DNA from: Solirubrobacteraceae bacterium
GTDB lineage: Bacteria > Actinomycetota > Thermoleophilia > Solirubrobacterales > Solirubrobacteraceae
Length of the DNA: 64,000 nucleotides
Direction of reading: 5' to 3'
Assembly (NCBI GenBank): GCA_031177685.1
Contig: JAPSGI010000003.1
Coordinates: 124,001-188,000, forward strand
Shown here: piece by piece, positions 3,424-13,375 of the stretch
How positions within the stretch are numbered: the first letter of the stretch is position 1
Layout: every line of letters begins with the position of its first letter
Translations under genes and position numbers: made by a program
Notes under the pieces: model-generated
The model's input: the letters and a program-made list of their open reading frames with translations, nothing else
Databases searched by the model: none
Told to the model about the DNA's origin: nothing

Positions 3424-4881
3424 ATGGACCGCGATACCCGGCTCGACGCCATCCTGACGCAGGCACGCAAGGACCGCGGGCGCCTCGACGCGGGCGCCGT
3501 CGGGCTGTTCTCGCTGACCACGCTGGGCATCGCCAGCGTGGTCGGCGCGGGGATCTTCGTCACCACGGGCGAGGCGGCTGCGGAGTTCGCCGGCCCGAGC
3601 GTCGCGATCTCCTTCGTGCTGGCCGGGATCGCGGCCGCGCTGACCGCGGTCTGCTACGCCGAGCTGGCGGCGATGATCCCGATCGCCGGCTCCACGTACT
3701 CCTACGCGTACGCCGCATTCGGGACGTTCATGGCCTGGTTCATCGGGTGGGACCTGCTCCTGGAGTACCTGTTCGCGGCGTCCACGGTCGCGGTGGGCTG
3801 GGCGGGCTACTTCGAGTCGTTCCTCGGGTCGATCGGGATCGGGTTCCCGCACGCGCTCGCCAACCCGCCGTTCGGCGACGACCCCGGGGCGGTGAACCTG
3901 CTCGCAATGCTCATAGTGGGCCTCGCCACGGCGCTGCTCGTGATGGGCACGCGGCAGTCCGCACGCACGAACAACGCGATGGTCACGCTGAAGATGGCGA
4001 TCCTCGTGGTGTTCGTGATCGTCGGCGCCGCGTACGTCGCGCCCGCCAACTGGGAGCCGTTCGTGCCGCCCAACGAGGGGGACTTCGGGGAGTACGGGCT
4101 CAGCGGGATCGTGCGGGGAGCCGGGATCGTGTTCTTCGCCTACGTCGGCTTCGACGCCGTCTCCACCGCCGCGGCCGAGGCGCGCGACCCGCAGCGCACC
4201 GTCCCGCGCGGGCTGCTGCTGACCGTGCTGATCTCGACGGTCCTGTACGTGGCGATCGGCCTCGTGCTGACCGGCCTGGTCCCGTACAGGACGCTGGACG
4301 TGGCCGACCCGATCTCCAAGGCGATCGAGGCGGCCGGGCCCGGCGTGACATGGCTGGACAACGCGATCGACGTCGCCGCCGTGGTGGGGCTGGCCTCGAC
4401 GGTCCTCGTGACGTTCTACGGCCAGACGCGCATCCTGATGCGGATGTCCTCGGACGGCATGCTGCCGCCGCTGTTCTCGCGCCTCTCGGCGCGCTTCCGC
4501 ACCCCCGTCTTCACGACGATCGTGTGCGGCGTCGCCGGCGCGATCGTGGCGGGCCTCGTGCCGATCGAGGTCCTGGGCCAGCTGGTCTCGATCGGGACGC
4601 TGATGGCGTTCCTGCTCGTGTGCGCCGGGGTGCTGGTCCTGCGCCGCACCCACCCGCACGTCGAGCGGCCCTTCCGGGTCAAGCGCGTCGGGCTGGTGGC
4701 GCCGCTGGGGATCCTCAGCGCGCTCGCGCTGATGGCGATGCTGCCCGTCGACACCTGGATCCGCCTGCTCGTCTGGCTGGCCATCGGGATGACGATCTTC
4801 TTCCTCTACGCCCGCCGTCACACGGAGGAGCGCTTCGCGGCGCTGGTGTCCGGCGAGCGGGCGGCCGTCCCGGACGACTGA
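3424..4881 (+). CDS. APC family amino acid permease
   Basis: This 485-residue integral membrane protein has about 12 hydrophobic segments. It opens with the APC signature of helix 1 (SVVGAGIFVTTGEAA) and continues with the family-typical AYAAFGTFMAWFIGWDLLLE stretch. It resembles the cationic amino acid transporter branch, and the expected role is proton-coupled amino acid uptake. The start ATG at 3424 lies 53 bp from the divergent lysS fusion, so a link to lysine supply is tempting but unproven. The last 64 bp overlap the convergent transporter gene at 4818. Confidence 0.88.
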   Translation: MDRDTRLDAILTQARKDRGRLDAGAVGLFSLTTLGIASVVGAGIFVTTGEAAAEFAGPSVAISFVLAGIAAALTAVCYAELAAMIPIAGSTYSYAYAAFGTFMAWFIGWDLLLEYLFAASTVAVGWAGYFESFLGSIGIGFPHALANPPFGDDPGAVNLLAMLIVGLATALLVMGTRQSARTNNAMVTLKMAILVVFVIVGAAYVAPANWEPFVPPNEGDFGEYGLSGIVRGAGIVFFAYVGFDAVSTAAAEARDPQRTVPRGLLLTVLISTVLYVAIGLVLTGLVPYRTLDVADPISKAIEAAGPGVTWLDNAIDVAAVVGLASTVLVTFYGQTRILMRMSSDGMLPPLFSRLSARFRTPVFTTIVCGVAGAIVAGLVPIEVLGQLVSIGTLMAFLLVCAGVLVLRRTHPHVERPFRVKRVGLVAPLGILSALALMAMLPVDTWIRLLVWLAIGMTIFFLYARRHTEERFAALVSGERAAVPDD

Positions 4882-5699
4882 GCCAGCACGGCCAGGCCGC
4901 CGACCATCAGCGCCAGCCCCGCCAGTGCGCCGACCAGCTCGGCCGGCGTGTCGTGCAGGCCCTCCTGGAAGGCGACCACGCCGAGGACGACGCTGCTCAG
5001 CGGGTCCAGGACCGACTGCGTGGCCACCGCGGGCGCCAGCCGGCCGGTCTGCAGGGAGGCCTGGGCCAGCGTGAGGCTGGCGTAGCCGACGACGACGAGC
5101 GCGTAGGTGTGCCAGTCCGCGAGGAGGTGCAGGACGCCCTCGTCGAGGTCCTCGACCACGGCCTTGGTGAGCCCGGCGCTCAGCCCCCACAGGATCCCGG
5201 TGGCGATGCCCAGCAACGTCGCCTTGCGCGCCGGGGCGGCGCCCCGGGCGGCCGCCACCAGCGGCACGCAGATCGCCGCGGCCACGGCGAATGCGGCGAG
5301 CCAGGCGCCGGTGGTCGCGTCCTCGCGCCCGCCCTCAGGATCGGCCAGGACCAGGAAGGCGCCCAGCCCGGCGGTGACCGCGACCGCCGCGACCACCTGC
5401 CGGCGCACCACGCGCTGGCCGGTCAGCCGGTGGCCGAGCGGCAGCGCGAAGACCACGGTGGCCGCCAGCAGCGGCTGCACCACCACCAGCCGGCCGATCC
5501 CCAGCGCCGCGGCCTGGGCGACGAACCCGCCGGCGTCCGCGCCGATTCCCGCCAGCCAGCGCGGCCGCCGCACCAGCGCCAGCAAAAAGCCGGGGCGCAG
5601 CGCCGCGTCGTCCGGCGCCCGCGCCGCCTCGGCCTGCTGGAGCACCGTCCCCAGCGCGAACAGCAGCGCGGCGGCAAGGGCGAGGACGACCTCCAGCAT
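4818..5699 (-). CDS. DMT superfamily (EamA/NIPA-like) transporter
   Basis: A 293-residue protein with about nine or ten hydrophobic helices arranged as two repeats, typical of drug/metabolite transporters. The first segment (LALAAALLFALGTVLQQ) and the later SVLDPLSSVVLGV motif match EamA-like proteins. The substrate cannot be inferred. It lies at the downstream end of the minus-strand run that begins with the LigD genes, 63 bp after the membrane protein at 5763. An 8-bp inverted repeat sits in that gap. Its 3' end overlaps the permease gene by 64 bp, so the two would give overlapping antisense transcripts. Confidence 0.8.
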   Translation of the reverse strand: MLEVVLALAAALLFALGTVLQQAEAARAPDDAALRPGFLLALVRRPRWLAGIGADAGGFVAQAAALGIGRLVVVQPLLAATVVFALPLGHRLTGQRVVRRQVVAAVAVTAGLGAFLVLADPEGGREDATTGAWLAAFAVAAAICVPLVAAARGAAPARKATLLGIATGILWGLSAGLTKAVVEDLDEGVLHLLADWHTYALVVVGYASLTLAQASLQTGRLAPAVATQSVLDPLSSVVLGVVAFQEGLHDTPAELVGALAGLALMVGGLAVLAQSSGTAARSPDTSAAKRSSV

Positions 5700-5762: not shown

Positions 5763-6542
5763 CTACGCGGGCGGGGGTGGGGGCGTGCCGGGCGGCGGGG
5801 GCGGCGGTTGCGGTGCCGTCGCGCCGGGCACGTCCGCCGCCGGCGCCGCCGCCGCGGCCGGCGCCGCGCCCTCGCGGATGCGGCGCAGCTCCAGGTACAG
5901 GACCGTGGCGGCGATCGCGCCCAGCGGCGCCAGCAGCACCGTGGCCAGCAACGAGCCGATGACCGCGCCGGCGAAGTCGCCGATGCCGATGAAGATCGCG
6001 ACGAGGATCAGCGTGGCGATCAGCTGCAGCGCGATCAGCACGACGAGCACGCCGAAGACCTGCCAGGCGTTGCCCTTGACCAGCTCGCGCGAGCGGCCCA
6101 GCGCCTCGAAGACGCCGCGGCGCTCGAGCACGACGGTGGGGATGGTCACCGCCCAGATCGTCAGCAGGAACAGGCCCGGGACGATCAGCAGCACGAAGCC
6201 GATGGCCACCCCGATGCCGATCACCAGGCCGGCCAGCACGACCGGGCCCACGACCTGGAAGGCCGAGGAGAAGAGCTGGCCGAGGCTGAGGTCGCGCACG
6301 CCGTCCTGGATGTCGCGGACCGCCTCGACGACCGTCGCCTGGTACCAGGCGTTGCCCACCAGCTGCACGGCCTGCGCCCCGAGGGCGACGAGGATTCCCG
6401 TGCCGGCCGCGCGGATCCCGCCCGCGAGCAGCGTGACGGGGATGAAGACGATCAGCGCCGCGGGCAGCAGCACGCCGGCCTGCTCGCGGTAGTACTGGAA
6501 GACGCGGCTGAGGATCGCGCCGATGTCGAGGCGTTCGGTCAT
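5763..6542 (-). CDS. Polytopic membrane protein with Ala/Pro-rich C-terminal tail
   Basis: A 259-residue protein with an N-terminal amphipathic stretch (GAILSRVFQYYREQAGVLL) and about six hydrophobic segments. It ends in a low-complexity tail of alanine and then polyproline. The layout resembles membrane domains found beside glycerophosphodiester phosphodiesterases in Actinobacteria (DUF7544/GDPD membrane-domain type), but no catalytic domain is present and the function is unknown. Its ATG overlaps the stop of the LigD polymerase gene by 4 bp, so it is probably translated from the ligD operon. That physical link says nothing certain about a repair role. Confidence 0.75.
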   Translation of the reverse strand: MTERLDIGAILSRVFQYYREQAGVLLPAALIVFIPVTLLAGGIRAAGTGILVALGAQAVQLVGNAWYQATVVEAVRDIQDGVRDLSLGQLFSSAFQVVGPVVLAGLVIGIGVAIGFVLLIVPGLFLLTIWAVTIPTVVLERRGVFEALGRSRELVKGNAWQVFGVLVVLIALQLIATLILVAIFIGIGDFAGAVIGSLLATVLLAPLGAIAATVLYLELRRIREGAAPAAAAAPAADVPGATAPQPPPPPPGTPPPPPA

Positions 6543-7411
6543 GCCGGCAGACTACGCCGCGACGCGCCGATCCCCTTCCACGGGTCCCCCTCGCGGCCCA
6601 GCCGTTCGACCACCGTGCGGATCGTCCAGCCGTCCGGGCGCAGCGCGGGGTCGTCCAGCTCCTCCCAGCGCAGGGGCGTGGCCACCGGCGCGCCGTCGCG
6701 CGGCCGCACGGCGTAGGGCGCCACGGCATGCTGCGCGTAGGCATTGCGCCGCGTGTCCACGAAGATCGGCGCGCCCCGCTTGCCCTTGTAGAACTCGGTC
6801 GTCAGGCGGTCGGGTGCGCGCGCGGCCAGCTCGTCGGCCAGGTCCTTGGCCCACCGGAACACCGCCGGGAACTCCGGCCCGCGCCGGATCGGCGTGACGA
6901 CGTGCAGGCCGCGCGAGCCGCTGGTCATGACGTAGGGGACCAGGCCGGCCTCGCGCAGCGCGTCGCCCACCTCTCGCGCGGCAACGCGCACGCCGGCGAA
7001 GTCGTCGGTGGAGGGGTCGAGGTCGAAGATCACGCGGTCCGGCGCGCGCGGCCGGTCGGCCCGCGCCGGCCACACGTGGACGGTCACCACGTTCTGGCCG
7101 GCCAGGTAGACGAGCGTCGGCGCGTCGTCGGCCAGGACGTGGTTCACGGTCCCGCCGCGCTTGGGGAGCGTCGCGGTGGGGATCCAGTCGGGGAAGTGGC
7201 GCTGGGCGTTCTTGGCGTAGTGCCCGCGCGCGTCGATCCCGTCCGGGAAGACGTGCATGGCGACCGGCCGCCCGCGGGTGTGGGGCACCATGAAGGGCGC
7301 GACGTCGGCGCAGTAGCCCGCCAGCTCGGCCTTCGTGATCCCGTCGCGCGGGAACAGCACCTTGCCGGGACTGGAGATCGGCACGCTCCGGCGGCCGGCG
7401 CGGACGTTCAC
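6539..7411 (-). CDS. ligD: Stand-alone LigD polymerase (primase-polymerase) domain protein
   Basis: A 290-residue archaeo-eukaryotic primase fold matching the polymerase module of LigD, which adds nucleotides during bacterial non-homologous end joining. Visible signatures are KVLFPRDGITKAEL near the N-terminus, the acidic FDLDPS metal motif, SGSRGLHVVTPI, and FVDTRRNAYAQH near the end. I chose GTG at 7411 because it overlaps the stop of the ligase gene (GTGA) and leaves a normal N-terminus; a longer ATG start at 7498 would lie inside the ligase gene. Third gene of a coupled phosphoesterase-ligase-polymerase series. Confidence 0.9.
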   Translation of the reverse strand: MNVRAGRRSVPISSPGKVLFPRDGITKAELAGYCADVAPFMVPHTRGRPVAMHVFPDGIDARGHYAKNAQRHFPDWIPTATLPKRGGTVNHVLADDAPTLVYLAGQNVVTVHVWPARADRPRAPDRVIFDLDPSTDDFAGVRVAAREVGDALREAGLVPYVMTSGSRGLHVVTPIRRGPEFPAVFRWAKDLADELAARAPDRLTTEFYKGKRGAPIFVDTRRNAYAQHAVAPYAVRPRDGAPVATPLRWEELDDPALRPDGWTIRTVVERLGREGDPWKGIGASRRSLPA

Positions 7412-8337
7412 GCGCGCTCCCTCACCACGTCGCGCGCGTCCTTGTCCTCGCGCAGGCCGAGGAACCGCGGATGGCGCAGGCGGCCGTCGCGCGTCCACTC
7501 GGTGAACGCCACCTGGGCGACGAGCCGGGGCTGCACCCAGGTGGTGGCGCGCTCGGGGACCTCGTCGGCGAAGGGAGAGTCGTCGCGGCGCAGCGGCGCC
7601 AGCCGCCGGGCCAGGTCGCGCAGCGTCGCGCGGTCGAACCCGGTGCCCACCCGGCCGGCGTAGCGCAGCCGCCCCTCACCGTCGAAGTGACCCAGCAGCA
7701 GCGCGCCCAGCTCCTCGCGCGACCCGCGCGGCGCGGTCCATCCGCCGATCGCCAGCTCCTGGCCCTGCTCGCACTTGAGCTTGAGCCAGTCGCGCGAGCG
7801 TGCGCGCGAGACGTAGGGCGAGTCGGCGCGCTTGGCGATCAGCCCCTCCCAGCCCTTCGCGCACGCCTGTGCGAACAGCGCCTCCCCGTGCTCGCGACGG
7901 TAGGGCGTCTGGCGCAGCGGGTCGCTCCATGCCAGCGCGCCGCGCAGCCGTCGCTTGCGTTCGAGCAGCGGCAGGTCGCGCAGGTCGCGGCCGTCGAGCC
8001 ACAGCAGGTCGAAGGCGTAGAGGAACACCGGCACCGGCCGCTGCCCGCGCTGCGCCAGGCGCTCGAACGACGTGCGGCCGCGGTCGAAGGCGACCACCTC
8101 GCCGTCCAGCGCGAAGCGCCCGTCCTGGCGCTCCAGCGCCGCGGCGAGCTCGGGGAAGCGCGAGTCCAGCGCCAGGTCGTTGCGCGACAGCAGGCGGACC
8201 GGCCCGCCGTCGCGGACGGCGATGCAGCGGATGCCGTCGAGCTTGCGCTCGAAGATCCACTCGGGATCGGAGAAGCGCCGGTCGGTGAGCGTCGCCTTCA
8301 TCGCGTCCGCCCCGGTCGGCGGCGGCGCGTCAGCCAC
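7408..8337 (-). CDS. ligD: ATP-dependent DNA ligase (LigD ligase domain)
   Basis: About 309 residues from GTG at 8337; ATG at 8301 (297 residues) is an alternative start. The nucleotidyltransferase motifs are all visible: motif I ERKLDGIR with the adenylated lysine, LDGEVVAFD, AFDLLWLDG, GWEGLIAKR and motif V WLKLKC, followed by an OB-fold. It would seal DNA ends in NHEJ. GTG at 8337 overlaps the stop of the phosphoesterase gene by 8 bp, which favours translational coupling. In many bacteria this domain is the middle or end of a single LigD polypeptide; here it is a separate gene. Confidence 0.9.
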   Translation of the reverse strand: MADAPPPTGADAMKATLTDRRFSDPEWIFERKLDGIRCIAVRDGGPVRLLSRNDLALDSRFPELAAALERQDGRFALDGEVVAFDRGRTSFERLAQRGQRPVPVFLYAFDLLWLDGRDLRDLPLLERKRRLRGALAWSDPLRQTPYRREHGEALFAQACAKGWEGLIAKRADSPYVSRARSRDWLKLKCEQGQELAIGGWTAPRGSREELGALLLGHFDGEGRLRYAGRVGTGFDRATLRDLARRLAPLRRDDSPFADEVPERATTWVQPRLVAQVAFTEWTRDGRLRHPRFLGLREDKDARDVVRERA

Positions 8338-8809
8338 CGGCGGCGACCTCTTCGATCGTCTTGCCGGTGACGACCGACTCGGGGCGCTCGGCCACCACAT
8401 CGCCCCCGTCGCGGGCGAACTCGTCGCGGCGCTTGATCAGCAGCCACTGCGGCTTCTCGCCGCCGTGCATCCGGCGCAGCGTGAAGCCGCCGCGCAGCTT
8501 CTCGCCGTGCAGCTCGAACGAGGCGTGGCCCTCGGCGAGTGCGCGGTCGAAGGGCACCTCCCCCAGCGCGGACCACGTCCCGCGGTCCCACACGATCACC
8601 GTGCCCGCGCCGTAGCCGGCGCCGATCGTCCCCTCGAAGTCGCCCCACGACAGCTCGTGGTCCTCGACCTCGACGGCCAGGCGCCGCTGCGCCGGGTCCA
8701 GCGACGGCCCGCGCGGAACGGCCCAGGAGCGCAGCACGCCGCCGACCTCCAGGCGGAAGTCGTAGTGCAGCTGCGTCGCGTCGTGCTTCTGGACCACGAA
8801 GGTCGCCAT
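8330..8809 (-). CDS. ligD: LigD 3'-phosphoesterase domain protein
   Basis: A 159-residue protein matching the metal-dependent 3'-phosphoesterase module of LigD, which trims 3'-phosphates and ribonucleotides from DNA ends. The signature FVVQKHDATQLHYDFRLE begins at residue 4, and DFEGTIGAGYGAGTVIVWDR follows around residue 60. It is the first gene of the ligD series and starts 42 bp from the divergent Tim44-like gene. No Ku gene is in the window, so its partner must be elsewhere. Confidence 0.9.
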   Translation of the reverse strand: MATFVVQKHDATQLHYDFRLEVGGVLRSWAVPRGPSLDPAQRRLAVEVEDHELSWGDFEGTIGAGYGAGTVIVWDRGTWSALGEVPFDRALAEGHASFELHGEKLRGGFTLRRMHGGEKPQWLLIKRRDEFARDGGDVVAERPESVVTGKTIEEVAAGG

Positions 8810-8851: not shown

Positions 8852-10159
8852 ATGGCACGGACCGCCACGCTCGCGCTCGCGCTCCTGCTCGTCCACGCCC
8901 CCGCCGCGCTTGCCCTGGCGGGCGGCGGCTCGTCGGGCTACGGCGGCGGTGGGGGAGGCGGCGGCAGCTACGGCGGCGGCGGCAGCGGCTCCGGCAGCGG
9001 CGGCCCGTGGTGGGTGATGTTCGTGATCATCGGCGGGATCGTCCTGTTCCTGGCGGTGACCAGCTGGATCGGCGCCGCGCGCTACCGCGCCAAGCGCCGC
9101 GCCCGGGTCCAGCGGGTGCGCGCCGCGTCGGCGGAGGCCGCGCAGGACGACGCGCACTTCGAGCACGACCACGTCGTGGCGGAGGCCGAGCGGCTGTTCC
9201 GCGCCGCCCAGAAGGCTTGGGACGCGCGTGACCACGGGGCCCTGCAGGCGATGATCCCCACCGAGCTGTGGGAGGAGTGGAAGCGCCGCCTGGACGACTT
9301 CGAGCGCAAGGGCTGGCACAACCGCGTCGAGGTCAAGGCGGTGCGCGCCGAGTACGTGGGGCTGACCAACCGCGAGGACGACGCGCGCGACCGGGCGGTC
9401 GTGCGCATCGAGGCCGACGTGCGCGACTTCGTCGTCGACCGCGACGGCGCGCACGTGAAGCGCAAGGACGCCGGCGTGGAGGAGACGACCATCGCGCAGT
9501 ACTGGACGCTCGGGCGCGTCGGCGACGGCTGGCGGCTCGTGTCGATCGAGGAGCGCGCGGAGGGCGACCACCAGCTCGACGAGGAGCTCGTGGCCACGCC
9601 GTGGGACGACGAGTCGCGCATGCGCGACGAGGCGGTCGTGGAAGGCGCCGTCGCGGACGCCCCGGCCGGCGTCGCCACTTCCGAGATCGCGGACCTGGAC
9701 TTCGACGGCGACGCCCGCGCCGCCGCCAACGACCTGTCGCTGGCCGACCCGCGCTTCGCGCCCGGCGTGCTGGAGGCGGCCGCGCGCCGGGCCGTCGCGG
9801 GCTGGGCGGAGGCCGTCGACGGCGAGGACGGCGACCTCGCGGCGGTCGCGTCGCCGGGGGCCGTCGAGGCGCTCCTGTACCCCGGTGGCGACGGCTCGCG
9901 CCTCGTCGTGCGCGGTCCGCGCGTGCGCGCGGTGCGGATCGTCGCGCTGGACGCGGCGTCGCAGCCGCCGACCATGACCGTCGAGGTCGACGTGACCGGC
10001 CGGCGTTACGTCGAGGATCGCGACACGGCGGCGGTGCTGTCCGGCAGCCGGGACGGCGAGCGCGAGTTCACCGAGCGCTGGACGCTGGCGCTGGACGGCG
10101 CCGACGGCACGCCGTGGCGCGTGGTGGCCGCGGGCGCGCCGCCGGCCGGACCTAGCTAG
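8852..10159 (+). CDS. Tim44-like domain membrane protein
   Basis: A 435-residue protein with a signal or anchor helix (ATLALALLLVHAPAALALA), a Gly/Ser-rich spacer and one transmembrane segment (VMFVIIGGIVLFLAVTSWIG). After a basic region comes a Tim44-like domain with LWEEWKRRLDDFERKGWHNR and IAQYWTLGRVGDGWRLVSIEE. A second, related NTF2-like module appears to follow, ending in FTERWTLALDGADGTPWRVV. The family is membrane-bound and of unclear role in bacteria. A TTCAAT box ends 6 nt before the ATG, suggesting a leaderless message. The stop overlaps the convergent HD-GYP gene by 4 bp. Confidence 0.78.
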   Translation: MARTATLALALLLVHAPAALALAGGGSSGYGGGGGGGGSYGGGGSGSGSGGPWWVMFVIIGGIVLFLAVTSWIGAARYRAKRRARVQRVRAASAEAAQDDAHFEHDHVVAEAERLFRAAQKAWDARDHGALQAMIPTELWEEWKRRLDDFERKGWHNRVEVKAVRAEYVGLTNREDDARDRAVVRIEADVRDFVVDRDGAHVKRKDAGVEETTIAQYWTLGRVGDGWRLVSIEERAEGDHQLDEELVATPWDDESRMRDEAVVEGAVADAPAGVATSEIADLDFDGDARAAANDLSLADPRFAPGVLEAAARRAVAGWAEAVDGEDGDLAAVASPGAVEALLYPGGDGSRLVVRGPRVRAVRIVALDAASQPPTMTVEVDVTGRRYVEDRDTAAVLSGSRDGEREFTERWTLALDGADGTPWRVVAAGAPPAGPS

Positions 10160-11529
10160 GCCGGCTCGGTCTCCGTCGCCTGGACGTACGCGCTGACCCG
10201 CTCCTCCAGGGCGAGCTCGGCGTCGAAGTCGGCGTCCTCGCCGTGGCGGAAGGCGACGTCGTTGCGCGCCAGCAGCGTGATGAAGGCGTCCACCACCTGA
10301 GAGTCGAGCTGCGCGCCCGCGACGCGCTGCAGCTCGCGCATCGCCTCCATCGAAGACACCGGCTCGCGATAGGTCTCGCGCGCGGTCATGACGTCGTAGG
10401 TGTCGGCGACCGCGATGATGCGCGACGCGAGCGGTATCTCCTCGCCGGCGATGCGGCGGGGGTAGCCCTCGCCGTCCCAGCGCTCGTGGTGCGCCAGCAC
10501 GATGTCGGAGATCGGTCCGTACCCGTCGACCTGCGAGACGATCTTCGCCCCCTGGTAGGGATGCGAGCGGATGATCTGCCAGTCGCGCTCGGTGAGCGGC
10601 ACGTCGGCCTTGAGGATGTGGTCCGGGAACACGAACTTGCCGATGTCGTGCAGCAGCCCGGCGGTGTGGACGAGCTCCTGCTCGGACTCGGGCAGGCCGA
10701 GCTCCCGTGCGATCTCGCGCGAGTAGCGCGCGACCGCCGCGCAGTGGCGCGCGGTCATCCGGTCGCGCAGGTCGAGCGTGTGCATCAGCGCGCTGATGAC
10801 GCCCAGCTGCAGCGAGGCCAGCTGCCGCCCGCGCACCTCGAGCGCCTCGGCCCGCGACTGCGAGGTCAGCAGCTCGTGCAGCAGGTACTGGAACGTGAAG
10901 ACGACGACCGTGCACAGGACCAGCGCGGTCAGCCCGACCGTCTCGTAGACCGCAACCACGCCCACGGCGAGCAAGGCGATGGCCAGCTCGGCCGGGATGA
11001 GCGGGATGAACATCGCCTTCGTGCGCGCCCAGAGCGAAACGCCGTCCAGCGCGCAGACGGGCGCGACGACCATCAGGAAGTTCATGACGTTCGTCAGCAG
11101 GTAGATCCCGAACACCACGAGCAGGAGCGTCGTACCGTGCGCGTCCAGCCCGAGCTGGGACTCGATGGCGCGGAAGGCGAGGCTTCCCAGCAGCGGATAC
11201 GCCGAGTAGACGCCGAGGTTGATGATCACGAAGTCGCGCGGCGCGCGGGCTCGCACCGAGTCCACGATCGTCGAAGCGAGCCCGATCGCCACGGCGGGCG
11301 CCGGACCCAGCAGGACCATGGCCACGACGAGCGCGAAGTGAGTCGCCGAGATGCGGATCCGCCGTGTCTCGATCGCGAAGTGATCCGAGGCGACCGCGAG
11401 GGCGAGAAGCAGGAGCGGAAGCGGCCACGGCTGCCAATCCTCGGTGCGCGACGTGAGGACGGCCCCAGTGACCGCCCCCAAGAGCAGGGCCGCCTGACCG
11501 GCGGCCACCCAAGGCTTCCGCGAACGCAT
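10156..11529 (-). CDS. Membrane-bound HD-GYP domain c-di-GMP phosphodiesterase
   Basis: A 457-residue protein from ATG at 11529. About seven hydrophobic helices form an N-terminal membrane sensor, then a short coiled linker leads to an HD-GYP domain with HTAGLLHDIGKFVFPD and the GYP motif HHERWDGEGYP. This predicts hydrolysis of c-di-GMP to GMP under control of a membrane signal. I chose ATG 11529 over TTG 11583 because a sigma-28-like promoter (11539-11566) would start transcription just before it, and the TTG has no usable ribosome site. Convergent with the Tim44-like gene. Confidence 0.86.
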   Translation of the reverse strand: MRSRKPWVAAGQAALLLGAVTGAVLTSRTEDWQPWPLPLLLLALAVASDHFAIETRRIRISATHFALVVAMVLLGPAPAVAIGLASTIVDSVRARAPRDFVIINLGVYSAYPLLGSLAFRAIESQLGLDAHGTTLLLVVFGIYLLTNVMNFLMVVAPVCALDGVSLWARTKAMFIPLIPAELAIALLAVGVVAVYETVGLTALVLCTVVVFTFQYLLHELLTSQSRAEALEVRGRQLASLQLGVISALMHTLDLRDRMTARHCAAVARYSREIARELGLPESEQELVHTAGLLHDIGKFVFPDHILKADVPLTERDWQIIRSHPYQGAKIVSQVDGYGPISDIVLAHHERWDGEGYPRRIAGEEIPLASRIIAVADTYDVMTARETYREPVSSMEAMRELQRVAGAQLDSQVVDAFITLLARNDVAFRHGEDADFDAELALEERVSAYVQATETEPA

Positions 11530-11617: not shown

Positions 11618-11902
11618 TCAGGCGCTTTGCGCCTCGAGCGCCTCGACGCGGTCGGCCAGCTCCTTGACCGACTCGATCAGCGCGGCCACCAATGCGGGGT
11701 AATCGACCATCAGGACGCCGTCGTCGTTCTCCGCCACGGCATCCGGGAAGGCGGCCTGCACTTCCTGTGCGATTACGCCCATCTCGCGGTTCTTGCCGGG
11801 GTACGACTGATAGGCCTCCTTGCCCTCCCGCCACTCGAAGGTGACGCCTCGGACCTGCCGCAGACGTTCGAGGACGGTGGGTTGCGACTCGCTTTGCTCC
11901 AT
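11618..11902 (-). CDS. Stand-alone peptidase_S74 (intramolecular chaperone) core lacking its N-terminal motif
   Basis: A 94-residue protein that matches the body of the peptidase_S74 / endosialidase chaperone domain: RLRQVRGVTFEWRE, then MGVIAQEVQAAFPDAV, VDYPALVAALIESVKEL and a short coiled coil at the end. In phage tail fibres this domain trimerises, helps folding and cuts itself off at a conserved serine. The usual opening motif SDxRLKxN is absent here but is encoded by the 17-residue frame just upstream (11978-12031). The start is ATG 11902 with AAGGAGG 5 nt upstream; the TTG at 11917 overlaps that ribosome site and is unlikely. No tail-fibre shaft domain is attached. Confidence 0.8.
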   Translation of the reverse strand: MEQSESQPTVLERLRQVRGVTFEWREGKEAYQSYPGKNREMGVIAQEVQAAFPDAVAENDDGVLMVDYPALVAALIESVKELADRVEALEAQSA

Positions 11903-11925
11903 CCAGTCCTCCTTCAAATAGAGAA

Positions 11926-11959
11926 AAGGCCCCGGTCAGCACGTGCTGACCGGGGCCTT
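11926..11959 (-). terminator. 34-nt perfect palindrome, probable terminator or attenuator between micropeptide and S74 core
   Basis: AAGGCCCCGGTCAGCAC (11926-11942) is followed directly by its exact reverse complement (11943-11959). As RNA it would form a stem of about 15 bp. On the minus strand it is followed by TTTTCTCTATTT, the layout of an intrinsic terminator. It lies 18 nt after the micropeptide stop and 23 nt before the S74 core ATG, so read-through would be needed to express the core. A dimeric protein binding site (centre CACGTG) is the alternative. Confidence 0.75.
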
Positions 11960-11977
11960 CTATCAGTTCCGCCAGCC

Positions 11978-12031
11978 TTAGAGGCTCTTGACGTTCTTCT
12001 TGAGGCGGGAGTCTGAAGCGCGGTAACCCAT
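11978..12031 (-). CDS. 17-residue micropeptide carrying the S74 N-terminal motif
   Basis: ATG at 12031 encodes MGYRASDSRLKKNVKSL and ends in TAA at 11978. AGGAAGGA lies 8 nt upstream as a ribosome site. Residues 6-17 (SDSRLKKNVKSL) match the beginning of the peptidase_S74 domain (consensus SDxRLKxNI), the part missing from the protein encoded 75 nt downstream. Joined end to end, the two products would rebuild a normal S74 domain. It may be a real micropeptide, a regulatory leader, or the remnant of a gene split by a stop and the palindrome. Confidence 0.6.
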   Translation of the reverse strand: MGYRASDSRLKKNVKSL

Positions 12032-12172
12032 TTGAAAGTCCTTCCTGATCGTTTTCTGGCCCTTCCTGAGCCGGACTGCAGCGTGGCAGGGATGATGAGG
12101 TTTTGCACGGATTGGGATGAAAGTTGCGCCAAAAAGGAGTTTTAGGATTCATTCAGTAGCGATGGTCCATAA

Positions 12173-13375
12173 GTGAGCGCACGCACGCTCGCCCCGCTCC
12201 GCGTGCGCTCCTTCAGCCGCCTGGCGGCGGCCTACACGGTCAACGAGGTCGGCGACTGGCTCGGCCTCGTAGCCCTCTCGGTCCTGGTGTTCCGCGAGAC
12301 CGACTCGGCGCTGGCCCTGACGGGGCTCTTCCTCGCGGCGAACCTGGTTCCGGCGTTCCTCGCGCCGCTGCTCACCGCGCGCATCGACCGCGCCTCCGTG
12401 CGCCGCGCCCTGCCGGCGATCTACGTGATCGAGGGCGCGATCTTCGTCGCCCTGGCGCTCCTGGCCGACCGCTTCTCGCTGCCGTTCGTTCTCTTCCTGG
12501 CGCTCGCCGACGGCATCCTGCTCCTGACCGCCCGCGCGCTGTCGCGGGCCGCCGTGGCCGCCGTGATGGAGCCCCAGGGGCTGCTGCGCGAGGGCAACGC
12601 GATCGTCAACGTCGGCTTCGCGGCCGCCACCGCGATCGGGCCGGCGCTGGGCGGCGTCGTGGTGGCGGGGCTGGGCGTCGCCGAGGCGCTGCTGCTGGAC
12701 GCCGCCTCGTTCGCCCTGATCGCGGCCCTGCTCGCCACGGCCCGCGCGCTGCCGGCGGCGCGACCCGACCCGGAGCCCGTCCTGCGGCGGGTACGGGCGG
12801 GCTTCGGGTACGTGTGGCGCGATCCCTACGTCCGGACGCTGGTGATCGGGCAGGCGGCCGCGTTCGTCTTCTTCACGACGGTCCTGCCGATCGAGATCGT
12901 CTACGCCAAGGAGTCGCTGGAGACCGACGACCGCGGCTTCGGCCTGCTGCTGGCCTCCTGGGGCGCGGGCATCTTCGTCGGGAGCCTGTTCTTCGTCGGC
13001 TCGCGGCGGCGGCCGCTGGCGCTCATCGCGATCTCCACGTCGCTGGTGGGCATGGCCTACCTCGGGATGGCCGGGGCCAACTCGCTGGCGGTCGCCTGCG
13101 CCCTCTCGGTGATCGGGGGAGCCGGCAACGGCGTCCAGTGGGTCGCGCTGCTCACCGCGGTGCAGGAGGTCACCGACACCACCCTCCAGGCGCGCGTCGT
13201 GGGGTTGATCGAGTCCGCCGGAGCCGCCATGCCGGGCGTGGGCTTCCTGCTGGGCGGCGGGGTGACCGCGCTGGCCGGCCCCCGCGTTGCCTTCGCCGTG
13301 GCCGGCGGCGGCGTGCTGGCCGTGCTGCTCGTGATGTCCACCCTCATGCGCCGCGTCGTGCGCGCCCGAGCCTGA
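12173..13375 (+). CDS. MFS transporter (EntS-like)
   Basis: A 400-residue transporter with about 12 hydrophobic helices, starting with GTG at 12173. The N-terminal SRLAAAYTVNEVGDWLGLVA and the loop after helix 2, TARIDRASVRRAL, match MFS_3 exporters of the enterobactin-exporter type. The middle segment RVRAGFGYVWRDPYVRTLV is typical of this group. The substrate is unknown. It is divergent from the S74 locus across about 140 bp of less GC-rich sequence. The downstream peptidase gene begins only about 14 bp after its stop. Confidence 0.82.
   Translation: MSARTLAPLRVRSFSRLAAAYTVNEVGDWLGLVALSVLVFRETDSALALTGLFLAANLVPAFLAPLLTARIDRASVRRALPAIYVIEGAIFVALALLADRFSLPFVLFLALADGILLLTARALSRAAVAAVMEPQGLLREGNAIVNVGFAAATAIGPALGGVVVAGLGVAEALLLDAASFALIAALLATARALPAARPDPEPVLRRVRAGFGYVWRDPYVRTLVIGQAAAFVFFTTVLPIEIVYAKESLETDDRGFGLLLASWGAGIFVGSLFFVGSRRRPLALIAISTSLVGMAYLGMAGANSLAVACALSVIGGAGNGVQWVALLTAVQEVTDTTLQARVVGLIESAGAAMPGVGFLLGGGVTALAGPRVAFAVAGGGVLAVLLVMSTLMRRVVRARA

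Follow-up and report, generated by a model that had tools for sequence, protein, structure and literature searches.

A Peptidase_S74/ICA domain is divided between two genes in a Solirubrobacteraceae bacterium, within a 64,000-nucleotide stretch of DNA (the window). We have little doubt that this split S74 module is real and functional and, with rather less assurance, we favour its interpretation as a two-gene form of the domain that acts in trans. S74/ICA domains are known as one-piece self-cutting chaperones, found at phage fibre ends and in MYRF. In the window, the Ser-Lys dyad (S-x4-K) is encoded in an ORF of its own, apart from the remainder of the domain, and the locus is therefore classed as a split variant, not as an ordinary Peptidase_S74/ICA member. 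The two-gene split recurs in distantly related Actinobacteria from soil and sea, with differing small proteins joined to the tag, and this points to a mode of folding or release of small proteins that has yet to be described. No published description of a separated S74 domain was found in the open-access literature, subscription papers lying mostly outside that search.

Organization of the locus

The features of the locus are as follows (window coordinates):

12173..13375, plus strand: divergent MFS transporter gene (neighbour annotation)
12040..12046, minus strand: ribosome-binding site AGGAAGG of the tag peptide gene, 8 nt before the ATG (sequence reading)
11978..12031, minus strand: 17-codon tag peptide gene, ATG at 12031, TAA at 11980-11978; product MGYRASDSRLKKNVKSL
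11924..11961, minus strand: intrinsic terminator hairpin, 17-bp GC-rich stem, ACGU loop, then U-rich tract UUUUCUCUAUUU
11908..11914, minus strand: ribosome-binding site AAGGAGG of the core gene, 5 nt before the ATG (sequence reading)
11618..11902, minus strand: headless Peptidase_S74/ICA core of 94 aa without the SDxxLK segment, with a predicted C-terminal helix; ATG at 11902, TGA at 11620-11618
10156..11529, minus strand: HD-GYP-type HD-domain membrane protein gene, next downstream (Pfam HD_5, 129 bits); a transcript shared with the core is a possibility only

The initial annotation had reported a 17-codon frame with a good ribosome site and, 75 nt beyond its stop, the start of the core as a separate gene with its own AAGGAGG. 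The first was borne out base by base and the coordinates of the second hold. The frame of the tag peptide is open back to 12148, though it offers no alternative ATG, GTG or TTG start. Both ORFs share one frame, with four in-frame stops between them, which rules out a single long protein made by stop read-through. The 141-bp space between the divergent genes (12032-12172) must hold the promoter or promoters; no sigma-70 consensus was found.

The nearest neighbours encode the HD-GYP-type HD domain, the MFS transporter and an M3 peptidase. The core has no N-terminal fibre domain and no tail genes were found among these neighbours, so that it does not qualify as a phage tail fibre or tailspike; the earlier remark that phage tail genes are not adjacent holds to this extent. 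No RiPP modification enzyme is encoded by the three nearest genes in the window. Elsewhere in the window (7408-8809, minus strand), a LigD-type ligase adjoins a 3'-phosphoesterase-like ORF, recognised by eye, as separate genes.

The tag peptide and the core as parts of one S74 domain

Against the Pfam profile Peptidase_S74 (PF13884), the core alone scored 46.7 bits over profile positions 15-57 (cut-off 22). Joined, peptide and core scored 62.6 bits over positions 1-57, a gain of 15.9 bits. Because the joined match begins at profile position 1, the tag peptide is the missing start of the S74 domain, and the earlier proposal that it carries the opening of that domain is confirmed by this shift. 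The end of the peptide and the start of the core fall at adjacent profile positions, and all the conserved residues are kept.

The S74 core is the only one in the genome. A DNA pattern degenerate for SDxRLKx[ND] had a single match on both strands of the 3.15-Mb genome, the tag peptide itself, and its reversed control had none over the same sequence. Scored with a matrix trained on continuous S74 proteins only, the tag peptide reached 27.8 bits and was the best place in the 64-kb window, followed by one of 18.7 bits. Together, the Pfam gain, the single genomic occurrence and the matrix score make a chance resemblance of the peptide to S74 practically untenable.

Six columns were invariant among 20 aligned S74 domains. 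The peptide contributes three of them (S6, D7 and K11) and the core the other three, namely G, A and Q in GxxAQ (GVIAQ in the window). The invariance of S and K is partly a product of how the rows were selected, because they were placed using the SD..K motif. Ser6 and Lys11 are the predicted catalytic dyad, by alignment to S587/K592 of MYRF and S911/K916 of phage endoNF, and the spacing from S to K, five residues, is the same as in both of these proven dyads. The MYRF ICA is cut between P586 and S587 by the Ser587-Lys592 dyad, of which Ser911-Lys916 of endoNF is the equivalent; cutting requires a trimer, in which the 'cable' of a neighbouring subunit threads the ring of the next ('cable-cutter') (PMC8326128).

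The peptide, its natural spacer and the core were modelled with AlphaFold2 as a linked monomer, with the stops read as Gly. The peptide falls within the first two blocks of ten residues, for which pLDDT was ~90 and 85; spacer residues 25-40 fell below 50 (disordered), and most of the core was above 90. The model shows strands at 3-5 and 11-16 and a terminal helix at 111-136. A confident fold was also predicted for the core alone. The linked monomer matched the MYRF ICA 7dc3 with a Foldseek probability of 1.00; in VIA the Z score stayed below 8, at 7.8, with 2.1 A over 87 residues. Weaker matches were to 3gw6 and 3gud, and all of these matches rest mainly on the core. The model fits complementation but gives no independent proof of it, because the alignment already places the tag.

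Tagged ORFs beside headless cores in Actinobacteria

PF13884 profile searches covered 399 genomes of the class, 396 of the phylum and plasmid records. Actinobacterial S74 proteins were of two kinds: long fibre-like chains that include an SDxxLK-type segment, and short headless cores. Ten headless cores were examined, from the window, G270, G463, G473, G685, the Miltoncostaea oceani megaplasmid (G122, L048), three Streptomyces plasmids (L068, L069, L072) and a Rhodococcus opacus plasmid (L070). One more core, from G434, is truncated at a contig end, and its tag region is absent from the assembly. All ten evaluable cores are accompanied by a separate ORF that ends in an S-(D/N)-x-x-(L/V/I)-K tag. 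In nine cases this ORF adjoins the core; the exception is Miltoncostaea, where it lies ~2 kb downstream. No further cores came from genome searches of the classes to which G473, G463 and G685 belong, and a DNA search of relatives with the whole window locus gave spurious matches to the core end only. Among the genomes searched, none other has the exact 17-mer and the hairpin.

The tagged ORFs of G270, G685 and R. opacus end in IISSNRDVKHDVKVIA, GFQSMSDRNVKHNVRGLTP and IPSDATIKHDVTPLTD, respectively. Those of Streptomyces end in SLLFSDRGLKTDVTAVVWER or similar, and their stop overlaps the start of the core. G473 has two tandem 52-aa tagged ORFs, ending in YSDRELKESVVAVSWN and NSDHELKQDFAAVEWR, and G463 (L062) has three in tandem downstream of the core, with YSDRNLK near each end; at these loci, therefore, a single core is matched with several tagged proteins. 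The Miltoncostaea tag, SDVRLKQDIRAV, forms the very C-terminus of a repeat protein of 185 aa, which belongs to the same gene run as the core. This protein (NZ_CP064357.1, IU369_RS19655, L048:12548-13105) contains about eight ETEAHA-type repeats and looks like a multi-copy peptide precursor.

By inspection, the cargo upstream of the tags has signal-peptide-like N-termini in Streptomyces and G685, a cationic stretch in G473 and a Lys-rich region in G463, and consists of the repeat protein in Miltoncostaea. The signal-peptide-like start was seen in the tagged proteins L068:2399-2869 and L069:2378-2869 of the Streptomyces plasmids. One Streptomyces cargo has a sub-threshold match to the chaplins (ChpA-C, PF03777, E 0.015), which suggests a surface protein as cargo. 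No tag peptide matched a known family above the cut-off in Pfam or NCBIfam; one G463 peptide had a sub-threshold S74 match (E 0.0057).

Since the tag motif had steered the first inspection of these relatives, an independent 12-column matrix was later built, trained only on 19 continuous S74 proteins of other sources, and applied in a six-frame scan. Wherever a tag adjoins the core, at nine loci, it was the top place near that core, with best scores of 16.9-28.8 bits, and the tags so found sit 1-17 residues before a stop codon. In Miltoncostaea the matrix also found the tag at the C-terminus of the repeat protein downstream of the core. Across 236 kb of mixed sequence, scores above 15 bits were otherwise reached by motifs lying within continuous S74 proteins, by lysine-rich parts of the tandem G463 ORFs and by a few unrelated sites. 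Two of the unrelated matches (18.7 and 19.2 bits) were also near a stop; the proof therefore lies in the position beside a headless core and not in the matrix score alone.

Joining gave the same result outside the window. In all eight tag/core pairs from seven other loci, joined after trimming of the variable N-terminus of the core, the Pfam match reached back to profile position 1 and rose by 2.0 to 10.1 bits, some of these increases being small (2-3 bits). Between the tag peptides of two Streptomyces plasmids there were 22 synonymous and 15 non-synonymous changes (pN/pS 0.25); the tag region had 6 and 1, respectively (pN/pS 0.06), and the core had a pN/pS of 0.19. These low ratios indicate that the Streptomyces peptides are selected as proteins, the tag most of all. 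Both dyad residues are kept in the tags compared across loci. By contrast, the S74 domains of viral contigs lie in long continuous ORFs at all 20 loci, with an SD-type segment recognised before the core in 18 (all but L088 and L090).

Several further arrangements were noted. In L067 (Streptomyces anulatus, NZ_CP109519.1), SDRAVKCDVDPVVW, ~25 extra residues and an S74 core follow one another within the single chain of a TPR protein, a fused form that may mark a fusion or a state before splitting. On the G463 contig C8 (L062 ~6030-6280), the third tagged ORF is followed by one beginning MDRSEMTGDQWASLDGLRAALGLGHEDADSAVEMGGAPLAAIQGLHLF whose likeness to an S74 core is limited to the C-terminal half of such a core; this may be a further split. 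The truncated core (L065, G434:C389 5540-5650) comes from another genome of the same bacterial family; it is the C-terminal part of a similar core and has an endonuclease IV-like gene next to it.

An M50 peptidase with cNMP domains lies upstream in G473. Signalling genes are often near headless cores, of HD-GYP type in the window and of cNMP-binding/M50 type in G473, and this may be a coincidence. Besides the window, the loci concerned are L061, L063, L064 and L070; EAL/HDOD-like, cyclase-like and Ser/Thr kinase neighbours were recognised elsewhere by eye or from annotation.

A proposed trans-acting tag and core

We consider it likely that tag and core assemble in trans. A tag at the C-terminus of a small protein would dock into the headless core as the 'cable' strand, as in MYRF trimers. 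The core would supply the cutter and the trimerising helix, and Ser6 and Lys11 of the peptide, together with the GxxAQ region of the core, would rebuild the active trimer. While the tag sits in the completed ICA trimer, the cargo could be held, folded or exported. Core-dependent cleavage with release of the cargo is plausible, if somewhat short of probable: the core would cut just before the tag serine and free the part upstream. In the window this part would be fMet-Gly-Tyr-Arg-Ala only; in the relatives it would be a secreted-type, cationic or repeat peptide.

The most serious competitor is a real split in which the tag serves solely as a structural or regulatory subunit, for example as an assembly switch, and no cargo is released. 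We hold this to be unlikely, though by no means negligible. The window peptide has five residues only (MGYRA) before Ser6, the cargo of the relatives being far longer, and MYRF cleavage needs a trimer, in which a peptide bound in trans may be held too loosely. However, a purely structural strand would not need Ser and Lys, which the tags retain, and within the Streptomyces peptides constraint is strongest on the codons of the tag.

With slightly more reserve than for cleavage, we put forward a general tag-and-core system of Actinobacteria, in which unrelated small proteins would carry a C-terminal SDxxLKxxV tag and the headless S74 trimer encoded beside them would bind it in trans, fold or escort the protein and cut at the tag serine. 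In such a system the substrate and half of the active site would therefore be encoded by one gene and the other half by another. The 17-residue peptide would then be its smallest known form.

It is improbable that the locus is instead a broken gene, that is, a continuous short S74 protein interrupted by a stop and an inserted terminator, whose fragments have no joint function. Peptide and core do share a frame, S74 domains of viral contigs are continuous, and there is no conservation within the genus, whose only other genome (72% complete) had no S74 match. Yet the core has a strong AAGGAGG at ideal spacing and the peptide a site of its own; the profile positions are adjacent at the break, with no conserved residue lost; and unrelated actinobacteria share the split, with differing gene orders, tandem tags and purifying selection on the Streptomyces tag. 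Continuous S74 relatives, named beforehand as the sign of a broken gene, were seen among viral and fibre-type proteins only, not among the actinobacterial headless cores.

The hairpin between the two genes

The 34-nt perfect palindrome AAGGCCCCGGTCAGCACGTGCTGACCGGGGCCTT (11926-11959), followed by a T-rich stretch, had been noted initially; it is indeed a 100% match to its own reverse complement, lies inside the terminator stem and precedes a U-rich tail. Within 2 kb, nothing other than the hairpin at 11924-11961 resembles a terminator. For the gap region (87 nt), the folding energy is -41.7 kcal/mol, with z = -4.76 relative to dinucleotide shuffles. A mobile or repeated palindrome was rejected: no exact copy of the 34 nt was found elsewhere in the genome. 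Five other GGCCCCGG..CCGGGGCC hairpins are present in the genome, each with a different interior.

In the relatives, the stretch between tag and core showed no palindrome of this kind. Of the two elements whose conservation was to be checked, the split thus recurs at ten loci and the palindrome was not seen again. Gap folds in three relatives (z -2.3, -2.5 and -1.9) were unconvincing and not terminators. The gap of G685 (L063 reverse complement, ~4880-4955) is enclosed by an inverted repeat, ATCCCCAC..GTGGGGAT, which would pair with the ribosome site of the core (fold z -2.3).

The hairpin could serve as a stoichiometry control that keeps the peptide in excess over the core, an idea to which we give nearly even weight. 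As a leaky terminator after the peptide gene, it would yield more peptide mRNA than core mRNA, and relatives could reach the same excess through two or three tandem tag genes.

The layout of ORF, strong terminator and gene also recalls leader-peptide attenuation, in which translation of the 17 codons would control termination at the hairpin, and thus the core and perhaps the HD-domain gene, the likeness to S74 serving only to sense the partner. We rate this slightly below the broken gene. Three points make an attenuator controlled by translation less likely: the stem starts 16 nt past the stop codon, beyond easy reach of a ribosome at the stop; no rival fold is dominant; and relatives do not share the layout. 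No anti-terminator helix outcompetes the hairpin in the minimum-energy or centroid fold of the window locus, and regulatory amino acids do not form a run in the peptide. The simpler assumption is a leaky terminator that acts constitutively. As a general layout the attenuator lacks support: no such palindrome was seen in the relatives, the Streptomyces ORFs overlap, and the G463 tagged ORFs lie downstream of the core. Of the three meanings first considered, two-part complementation and a tag for a stand-alone chaperone are thus supported, as one recurrent arrangement at ten actinobacterial loci, whereas translation-controlled termination is unsupported as a general feature.

Translational bypassing of the phage T4 gene 60 kind, from the last sense codon CTC to an in-frame CTC after the hairpin, giving one continuous S74 protein, is very improbable: matching codons do flank the stop and the hairpin in the same frame, but chance alone would often place a matching codon nearby, the core is equipped with a ribosome site and start of its own, the overlapping or reordered ORFs of relatives could not be joined so, and the nascent chain, at 17 residues, falls short of what the nascent-chain effects of gene 60 require.

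Implications and comparison with known systems

The split module makes it testable whether an ICA cutter acts on a strand from another gene. If the proposal is true, half of a catalytic site travels on the substrate, allowing sequence-specific release of small proteins with nothing left on the cargo; a class of mostly unannotated small proteins becomes recognisable through its C-terminal SDxxLK tag; stand-alone 'tail fiber domain-containing proteins' outside phage settings are explained; and a two-part cleavage tag is available for biotechnology.

Among known systems, leader peptide/attenuator units of the trp and pyr type share with the window a short ORF, an intrinsic terminator and a structural gene. 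In the window, however, the peptide is a conserved piece of the domain of the downstream protein, the layout is not conserved and an anti-terminator was not found. The Peptidase_S74 proteins of extracellular contractile injection systems likewise occur in bacterial loci without annotated fibre genes, and a separated S74 tag is not described in the parts of that report consulted (PMC8213781); no contractile-injection gene is present among the window neighbours examined. Split inteins and other naturally split auto-processing domains also have catalytic residues spread over two genes whose products must associate, but their fold and chemistry are unrelated, and splicing is not proposed for the window.

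Closer are the S74 domains of phage endosialidases and tail fibres (endoNF, 3GW6; GA-1 neck appendage, 3GUD; T5 L-shaped fibre), which are alike in profile, SDxxLK Ser-Lys dyad and GxxAQ, and in the predicted core fold and C-terminal helix. There, segment and core belong to one polypeptide that ends a trimeric fibre, whereas the window has two genes, no fibre domain and no adjacent tail genes. The MYRF ICA (7DC3) has the same dyad spacing, is the best structural match of the model and belongs to a cellular, not a viral, protein. In MYRF, a membrane-bound transcription factor, the chain is continuous and cuts itself in a trimer; in the window, the strand to be cut would come from another gene. 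The actinobacterial headless cores (L068, L069, L072, L070, L048, G270, G463, G473 and G685) resemble the window in combining a core without SDxxLK with a separate tagged ORF. They differ in their cargo, of tens to ~170 residues instead of five, and in their layout, with no terminator between the genes and with ORFs that overlap, are reordered or stand in two or three tandem copies.
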